DNA of 64,000 bases, from positions 3,544,001 through 3,608,000 of the forward strand of contig NZ_LT629763.1 in assembly GCF_900105255.1 (NCBI RefSeq), written 5' to 3'. The notes beneath the pieces were generated by a model, which worked only from the letters and a program-made list of their open reading frames with translations, did not search any database and was not told where the DNA came from. This stretch comes from Halopseudomonas sabulinigri. Lineage in GTDB: Bacteria; Pseudomonadota; Gammaproteobacteria; Pseudomonadales; Pseudomonadaceae. Below are positions 43,052 to 44,246 of this stretch, piece after piece (position 1 is the stretch's first letter; each line of letters starts with the position of its first letter). A program made the position numbers and the translations under genes.

Positions 43052-43062
43052 GCCTAACAAGT
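43052..43062 (+). other. attC6, left part (interrupted by IS)
   Basis: Inverse core GCCTAAC (43052-43058) followed by AAGT; the rest of the site resumes at 44247. Removing the IS rejoins GCCTAACAAGTCGTTCAAGG, a typical attC start. Confidence 0.85.
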
Positions 43063-43085
43063 GACTGTGGTGTCAACGTCCCAAA

Positions 43086-44039
43086 TCAGGCTGTTTTTTC
43101 ACGCCACGGCTCTTGATTCTTAACCATGGTGTTGAGCATCACGATCATCTTTCGCATGCAGGCAATGAGGGCGACTTTTGGTAACTTTCCTTGGGCTTTC
43201 AGGCGTTCATAGAACTGCTTGAATACCGGGTTGCATTGGATGGCTGACATCATCGCCATGAACATCACTGTTCGCACTCTATGACGACCGCCACGGATCC
43301 GACGCTTGCCCGTCAGTCTGCCGCTATCGCGATTGATGGGTGCCACGCCAACCAGGGCTGCGATCTCTCGCCGGTTAAGCTTGCCTAACTCAGGAAGCTC
43401 GCTCAGTAGCGTAAACGCCATGACTTTGCCAACGCCTGGCACGCTGGTCAGGATGTCTGTTTTGCTTCGCCAATGATCAACCTTGGCGACTTCATGCTCG
43501 ATCTGCTTGGTGATGGTTTTGATCTGGGTCTGGAGCGTTTTGAGTAGACTATTGATGGAGCTGTGAAGTGTTTTTGGCAGTATTTGCAGGCGGTTTTTTT
43601 CCATGGTGGACATTTCCATGAGCTGGCTGCGCCTCGCCAATAGGTCTTTGATTTTTTGAGATGTTTTATCCGGTATGGGCTTGAATTCTGGCTTCAGCGT
43701 AGCAGCATATTTGGCAATGACCTGAGCGTCGATGCGGTCAGTTTTTGCCAACACACCGATAGCTTGGGCATAGCGCCGCACACTGATCGGATTGACCACA
43801 ATGATGGGCAGCCCAGCCTGACTGATGGCTCGAACCAATGCATGTTCGTAGCGGCCTGTTGCTTCTACAACGATCCGCTCAATGGCGTAGCCCTTGAGTA
43901 TCTTCACAAGCTCTCGGATATGAGTGGTGCTGTTCGGGATGGTAAAAGACTGGCCGGACGGATGAAGGGCGATATCGAGGTTAGCTTTACCGACGTCGAC
44001 ACCGATGTTGATCAGGGTTTGGTTTTCTGGAGTGTTCAT
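43086..44039 (-). CDS. IS110-family transposase (DEDD recombinase), copy 1
   Basis: 317 residues. The N-terminal RuvC-like DEDD domain shows D15 ([11 protein letters not shown]), E59 (VVEATGRYE), D101 and D104 ([15 protein letters not shown]). A coiled linker follows (residues about 127-190). The C-terminal Transposase_20 domain has [19 protein letters not shown] and the candidate catalytic serine S239 in [17 protein letters not shown]. Such recombinases exchange DNA strands under guidance of an RNA made from the element's own non-coding end. Intact, no frameshift; identical to copy 2. Confidence 0.93.
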
Positions 44040-44074
44040 AATAAGCTGACTCTGCCTTGCTATACGGGCTCGAG

Positions 44075-44165
44075 GCCCCGATGACTGTTCGAGTTATCGC
44101 TTGAGAGTCATGCAGCGCTACCCACTTGTTATCGGTCTCTCAAAAGAGGAGCCGGCGCTACACCG
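44075..44165 (-). ncRNA. Candidate bridge/seek guide RNA region, copy 1
   Basis: Non-coding part upstream of the transposase. Read on the minus strand it holds, in order: a small CTCTTTTGAG hairpin; ATAACAAGTG (44132-44123), equal to the left side of the cassette-10 target; CTCAAGC (44105-44099), the complement of the target's right side GCTTGAG; and ACAGTCA (44088-44082), the complement of the IS end TGACTGT at 43062-43068. This order (5' hairpin, two target guides of opposite sense, donor guide) matches known IS110 bridge RNAs. Ends and transcription are not visible, and a second donor guide was not found. Confidence 0.5.
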
Positions 44166-44246
44166 AGCTGCTGCATGAAGGCCCCCGATGGCCGTCGGGG
44201 GTGGGCCTCAATTTACCCAAACACGGCAGAAATTATCCATACAAGT

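Follow-up and report, generated by a model that had tools for sequence, protein, structure and literature searches.

IS621, the best PDB match of the recombinase studied here (phmmer, E 4.5e-35, 124.7 bits), is described in the accessible parts of two reports as carrying an RNA 5' of its gene in which a 5' hairpin is followed by left and then right target guides and by left and split right donor guides, together with a CT core, a handshake base, a promoter-like junction, and DEDD and Ser-Gly residues in the recombinase (PMC11208160, PMC11208158). The seekRNA of ISEc21, another IS110-type element, lies in an upstream non-coding region, and its bottom-strand match precedes its top-strand match; its target site is in IS3-family transposase genes, and in its relative ISMch6 a guide change has naturally redirected insertion (PMC11187229, available part). 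In the IS1111 family, the RNAs of ISKpn4 and ISPst6 co-purify with the transposase and match both strands of one attC end, and the attC-dwelling group to which they belong with ISPa25 and ISPa21 is described, in the same part of that report, as having a downstream non-coding region, subterminal inverted repeats and the reversed guide order (PMC11187229). ISPa21 has been located in attC sites of blaGES-5 integrons (PMC11616780, available part). The idea of an RNA-guided element in attC is therefore already published with the ISKpn4 and ISPst6 seekRNAs. In Shewanella integrons IS110-family elements are present, and none interrupting an attC was found, as far as the accessible part of that report extends (PMC9229058). 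A search of the open literature, mostly at title level, returned no report of an IS110-type element with an upstream non-coding region that is aimed at attC.

The window analysed here (the whole stretch of 64,000 nucleotides) contains a 1184-bp IS110-type element in two identical minus-strand copies, copy 1 at 43061-44244 and copy 2 at 46181-47364, the latter with the same features at +3120. From its anatomy, the covariation of its fold and the covariation of guides and flanks, all obtained by sequence comparison, we put at about 0.9 the probability that it is an IS621-like insertion sequence whose upstream bridge RNA directs it to the 5' half of attC sites in integrons. By its sequence the element shares with IS621 the features listed above, and with ISEc21 the upstream non-coding region and the order of the strand matches. 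It differs from ISEc21 in its target, and from IS621 in that its target is attC R''/L'' in place of the IS621 site, in that the phmmer match amounts to only 124.7 bits, and in that the core is TT in two relatives from Vibrionaceae.

In relatives, the left end (in gene orientation) is conserved as TTGTATGG and the right end as CACAGTCAC or a variant of it, while the sequence outside is variable, so that the element spans 43061-44244 and is inserted, as read on the cassette strand, at TAACAA^N. The earlier note had rightly recognized an IS110-type element here, with a span (43057-44246) that is a few bases too wide. The genome, a single contig of 4.03 Mb, carries five copies, and the only sequence constant before the insertion point in all of them is [A/C]TAACAA, as in an attC R'' box. 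The three copies outside the window differ from the array pair by 3, 5 and 5 internal substitutions, and the identity of the array copies to each other therefore makes this pair look recent.

Both copies in the window split an attC. Left of copy 1 stands an R'' box with spacer, GCCTAAC+AA (43052-43060, plus strand), and right of it the remainder of the site from L'' to R' GTTAAGT (44245-44350, plus strand), whose far end is the best-scoring candidate. The corresponding parts around copy 2, from comparison of the genome's own copies, are GCATAAC+AA (46172-46180, plus strand) and 47365-47500 (plus strand), with GCGTTATGT as the best-scoring candidate for the far end. A regular-expression scan of the window with strict R boxes gave one attC candidate, from two overlapping starts. 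An integron integrase gene is located at 39021-39986 on the minus strand, next to the cassette-like array, and the interval 34769-39986, in which the integrase stands beside a purL-like gene (named from its translation), has the form of a chromosomal integron platform.

Among the relatives, an attC R'-like GCGTTR motif lies within 150 bp beyond the insertion in 33 of 56 cases, against 2.8 expected from shuffles; this rule is uncalibrated and was chosen after the sites had been viewed, and two of the 56 rows come from one locus (L055), one of them with a left end that may be spurious. Many insertions show an apparently whole attC, such as GGCTAACAA^GGCGCTGCTACGG...CCGCAGAGCGCGGCGTTAGGG at L004. 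The motif is lacking in the other 23 of the 56; some of these look attC-like by eye (L003), and one of the genome's own copies (L005) has no clear attC. Some insertions without a clear attC, L005 among them, retain TAACAA, which would be expected if pairing of the right guide alone can be enough. Two other tests for attC were set aside. Complementarity of R'' and R' was a weak one (11/38 vs 4.6 expected), and an inverted-repeat score compared with 166 TAACMA control sites (p 0.008; 6/38 above the controls' 95th percentile) is confounded, because the loci themselves hold intact attCs.

The recombinase, of 317 amino acids, is encoded at 43086-44039 on the minus strand and contains DEDD_Tnp_IS110 and Transposase_20 domains (PF01548, E 1.1e-22; PF02371, E 9.5e-19; NF033542 above its cut-off). 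Residues D15, E59, D101, D104, S239 and G240 are invariant in eight aligned sequences, including that of the window. Upstream of the gene are 205 nt of non-coding sequence (44040-44244), and downstream are 25 nt (43061-43085), which include the right end, ACAGTCAC (43061-43068, minus strand), the left donor. A -35-like TTGACA in the right end (43071-43076, minus strand) and a -10-like GATAAT in the left end (44232-44237, minus strand) form a promoter-like site with a 17-bp spacer when the ends are joined in silico. At one related locus (L089) the sequence that flanks the element on the left, GTCACCACAGTCGC, is a related element's right end; this is apparently a tandem insertion, which would also rebuild the junction promoter.

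The upstream non-coding sequence supports a bridge-RNA-like structure with target guides and donor guides. The 199 upstream nt that were folded gave a better structure than any of 200 shuffles (z -3.98). An RNAalifold consensus of 29 close relatives gave a 5' hairpin, a long stem around an internal loop and further hairpins, with double changes at 6 of 46 pairs. The earlier note had proposed folding the region with related elements and examining covariation, and the fold indeed covaries strongly: in 34 sequences of all lineages, 90.0% of the cells of the named structure are paired and double changes occur at 19 of its 27 pairs, the number of double-change cells being 125, compared with 33.2 in shuffled data and at most 22 when partners were slid. 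The predicted 5' hairpin (44182-44201, minus strand) has compensatory changes at 3 of 7 pairs. The predicted target-binding loop (44109-44177, minus strand) comprises an 11-pair stem (44177-44166/44119-44109), the left guide, an inner hairpin (44153-44134) and the right guide, with double changes at 11/11 stem pairs and 5/7 inner-hairpin pairs, a signal that sliding the partners destroys. In the donor loop, the inner hairpin GGGCCTCGAGCCC (44066-44078, minus strand) is paired in 99.3% of cells, and the basal stem is weakly supported (62.8%). Rfam at gathering thresholds gave no match for the RNA.

As read from the sequence, the guides follow one another 5' to 3' as left target, right target, left donor and right donor. 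The likely left target guide is GTGTAGCGCC (44154-44163, minus strand), which was absent from the earlier note. The right target guide with the core, TAACAAG (44125-44131, minus strand), would pair with CTTGTTA on the R'' side of attC, and the adjoining handshake-guide base T (44124, minus strand) with position 7 (A) of the donor. The left donor guide is ACAGTCA (44082-44088, minus strand), and the candidate right donor guide, read from the sequence, is ATA(G)CAAG (44056-44063, minus strand), the split complement of the left end CTTGTAT; a similar split right donor pairing is described for IS621 in the available parts of the two reports (PMC11208160, PMC11208158).

With this anatomy the element can be compared with the IS1111 elements of attC sites. 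An attC landing place (GCGTTR in 33/56) and the recombinase superfamily are common to both, and attC-matching seekRNAs have been published for that group, so the element might simply be another member of it, akin to ISPst6, ISKpn4 and ISPa21. This is quite improbable. No subterminal inverted repeat was detected between the 60-nt ends, in which the longest exact inverted match is 5 nt, a length equalled in 94% of shuffles, whereas 11-13 bp are usual in IS1111. The non-coding region lies upstream of the gene instead of downstream, although a few exceptions are noted for both families, and the bottom-strand guide precedes the top-strand guide, as in IS110. The PDB matches of the recombinase are only IS621 and ISCro4, in a database that holds few such proteins. 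A DEDD RuvC domain, Transposase_20 with its serine, a long upstream non-coding region, bridge-RNA complementarity at the level of sequence and left-before-right guide order are all found as in the IS110 family. By these features, with an upstream RNA, no subterminal repeats and a guide order opposite to that of the IS1111 group, the element belongs to the other branch, IS110.

To compare guides with flanks, 58 insertions were collected in which the right end has at most two mismatches from the donor guide and the flank has the form Y-N-G-K-T-W. This set replaced a first table of 50 rows, which was dropped because its narrow pattern missed elements; with its pattern no right end was recovered from 49 further loci, of which many are duplicates or contig ends. 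The right target guide matches core plus flank perfectly in 57/58 and the left donor guide matches the right end in 57/58, figures that are favoured by the selection on right end and flank form, which leaves the free base of the flank unaffected. At that base, guide and flank agree in 58/58 (51 A, 6 C and 1 G). Four alleles of the right target guide occur, namely TAACAAG (49), TAACCAG (6, of which five match perfectly and one is mismatched elsewhere), TAACAAA (2, with a TT core) and TAACGAG (1). Both TT cores, each matched by guide base A, are on plasmids (L163 and L164, of the plasmid set L163-L167). In lineage A, less filtered, a perfect six-base match was found in 36 of 40 insertions. The match between guide and attC is far beyond chance, since relatives whose guides differ have flanks that differ correspondingly.

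On a tree of 39 elements built without the guides, the A/C label at this base needs four changes, all of them forced by well-supported branches, and the flank base follows the guide in 39/39 (6/6 C rows and 33/33 A rows). The tree thus implies at least four switches of one base in the predicted right target guide, each with a matching switch in the flank. From these forced changes and the matching flanks, natural reprogramming of the guide has probably happened repeatedly.

The left donor guide, which occurs in six alleles, behaves likewise. The sole mismatch among the 58 is at L006, where the guide is ACAGTTA and the right end ACAGTCAC. The handshake base is complementary in 55/58, as T/A, C/G or A/T, the exceptions being L165 and L166, which are relatives, and L041. 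Misfits outside the 58 are L022 (flank TTATGT), L033 (flank TTGTAT), L034 (right end ACAGCTAC), L051 (guide TTGACAAG with flank TTGTTT) and L030 (guide deleted). In the last case, a Marinobacterium marinum copy (L030/L072), the right target guide is deleted inside the RNA, yet the right flank at the contig end is TTGTTA. A Marinobacter copy (L107, at about 1610) has the guide TAAGAA, for which the predicted flank is TTCTTA; its right end was not found.

The attC site forms a folded single strand, and the recombinase could read it by protein contacts or by the shape of the DNA hairpin, the guide-like matches then being incidental; the poor match of the left guide in part of the targets is in keeping with such reading. 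It is nevertheless very unlikely, since neighbours on the tree sit at TAACAA or TAACCA according to their own RNA segment, the donor segment and the end change together through six alleles, and some insertions without a clear attC retain TAACAA.

RNA-guided targeting, the preferred reading, agrees only in part with the guides first proposed. All the segments that the earlier note had pointed out are present: ATAACAAGTG (44132-44123, minus strand), CTCAAGC (44105-44099), ACAGTCA (44088-44082) and TGACTGT (43062). The target it assigned to copy 1, GCATAACAAGTGCTTGAGG, is real and belongs to copy 2 (46181-47364); copy 1 lies in GCCTAACAA^GTCGTTCAAGG, for which the reported 10/10 match of the first segment becomes 8/10 and CTCAAGC finds no match. 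The first segment does contain the right target guide, of which only TAACAAG is target plus core, and the T that follows in the 10-mer occupies the handshake-guide position and faces the donor end. ACAGTCA, taken as a guide for the end of the element, is the left donor guide, in line with its agreement in 57/58. The assignment of CTCAAGC as the second target guide is scarcely credible, for although it complements the GCTTGAG next to copy 2 without a mismatch, it is exact in only 1/5 own copies, the flanks of relatives do not track it (homologous segments in 46 element-flank pairs, own copies included: 193 matches vs 193.3 when permuted, 573/1000 as high), and by position (44099-44105, minus strand) it belongs to the 5' side of the donor loop, where it overlaps the proposed basal stem. 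The claimed order of two target guides and then a donor guide is accordingly unsupported with that segment, the likely left target guide lying at 44163-44154 instead. Across insertions, flanks track the right target guide and not CTCAAGC, and right ends track the donor guide. The core of the proposal is supported by sequence: in this IS110-type element one guide addresses the attC R'' box as target and another addresses the right end of the element itself as donor.

No stretch of the RNA varies more among relatives than the left target guide, which tracks the left flank loosely. In 55 distinct lineage-A pairs at register 0, guide and flank share 253 matches, compared with 214.8 when permuted (z 3.76, 1/2000); the runner-up among the other registers (-2 to +4) is -1 (z 1.76, 101/2000), with all the rest below 0.7. 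A separate permutation test of the best register gave 0/1000. In a larger set of 60 pairs from all lineages, some rows of which were mis-parsed, register -1 reached z 2.42 (15/2000); the automatic parse misread some distant loci (L076, L082), and the lineage-A figures are preferred. Permutation inside host groups was weaker (56/5000 overall; 14/3000 in the Nitrincolaceae-plus group), and no significant signal was detected within Marinobacter (1100/3000) or the Halopseudomonas group (600/3000). At the genome's own copies the match is loose, with 2, 5, 7, 7 and 2 of 10 positions agreeing. Inspection by eye of three plasmids from Vibrionaceae gave ATTGAACGCT, TTTAAACGCT and ATTAAATGCT as left guides; the flanks there end in TTAAATGCT, TTAAACGC and TTAAATTGC.

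Seven non-independent pairs are the closest informative ones (third-position divergence 0.05-0.20), and in them the differences amount to 45% of positions in the left guide, 17% of third codon positions and 2% of the other RNA. The excess of guide over third-position divergence shrinks in more distant pairs (0.35 vs 0.26, 0.40 vs 0.35 and 0.57 vs 0.51), and none was found among 16 nearly identical pairs. This fast change of the left guide hints at diversifying selection or at an active source of guide changes.

The proposed course of insertion would begin with an excised circle, in which the joined ends would form the TTGACA-17-GATAAT promoter and drive transcription of the RNA. In the target loop, TAACAAG would pair with CTTGTTA, the R''-plus-spacer part of attC, and the L'' side would be bound, less stringently, by the hypervariable left target guide. 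The donor loop would bind the ends of the element itself, the right one through ACAGTCA and the left one through ATA(G)CAAG. Donor and target would then be joined by the recombinase, with DEDD and serine residues as in IS621, at a CT core that lies between R'' and L''; insertion would have a single orientation and would split the attC. Of these events we infer transcription, RNA binding and catalysis, as well as any effect on cassette recombination.

At matches of E 0.001 or better, the whole-element query hit 6 of 37 genomes from the genus (the own genome included, several matches partial), and the RNA query hit 31 of 390 genomes drawn evenly from the order, some of these matches being weak and partial. 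The counts were 27 of 124 genomes in Marinobacter and 18 of 116 in the family that includes Marinobacterium, and a query from a distant lineage matched 31 of 390 genomes in the same draw of the order, overlapping the first set. DNA similarity was also present in 18 plasmid records, of which five were examined, from Salinivibrio, Photobacterium, two Vibrio and Pseudoalteromonas. The neighbours of these Vibrionaceae and Pseudoalteromonas copies (L163-L167) are mostly small genes (GNAT, hypothetical), which is suggestive of cassettes.

As a tentative proposal, rather less than an even chance in our estimation, a widespread Gammaproteobacterial lineage of IS110-type elements may live on the cassette pool, with one half of the guide nearly fixed on the universal R'' box and the other half hypervariable, being adjusted again and again to the L'' boxes particular to each host. 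The comparison with the IS1111 group suggests that two bridge/seekRNA branches, with opposite RNA placement and guide order, have both settled on attC. The parallel changes of guides and targets across natural relatives make guide evolution, and the tolerance of mismatches in each half, open to testing. The finding bears on integron dynamics as well, as an insertion that separates R'' from L'' might freeze cassettes.
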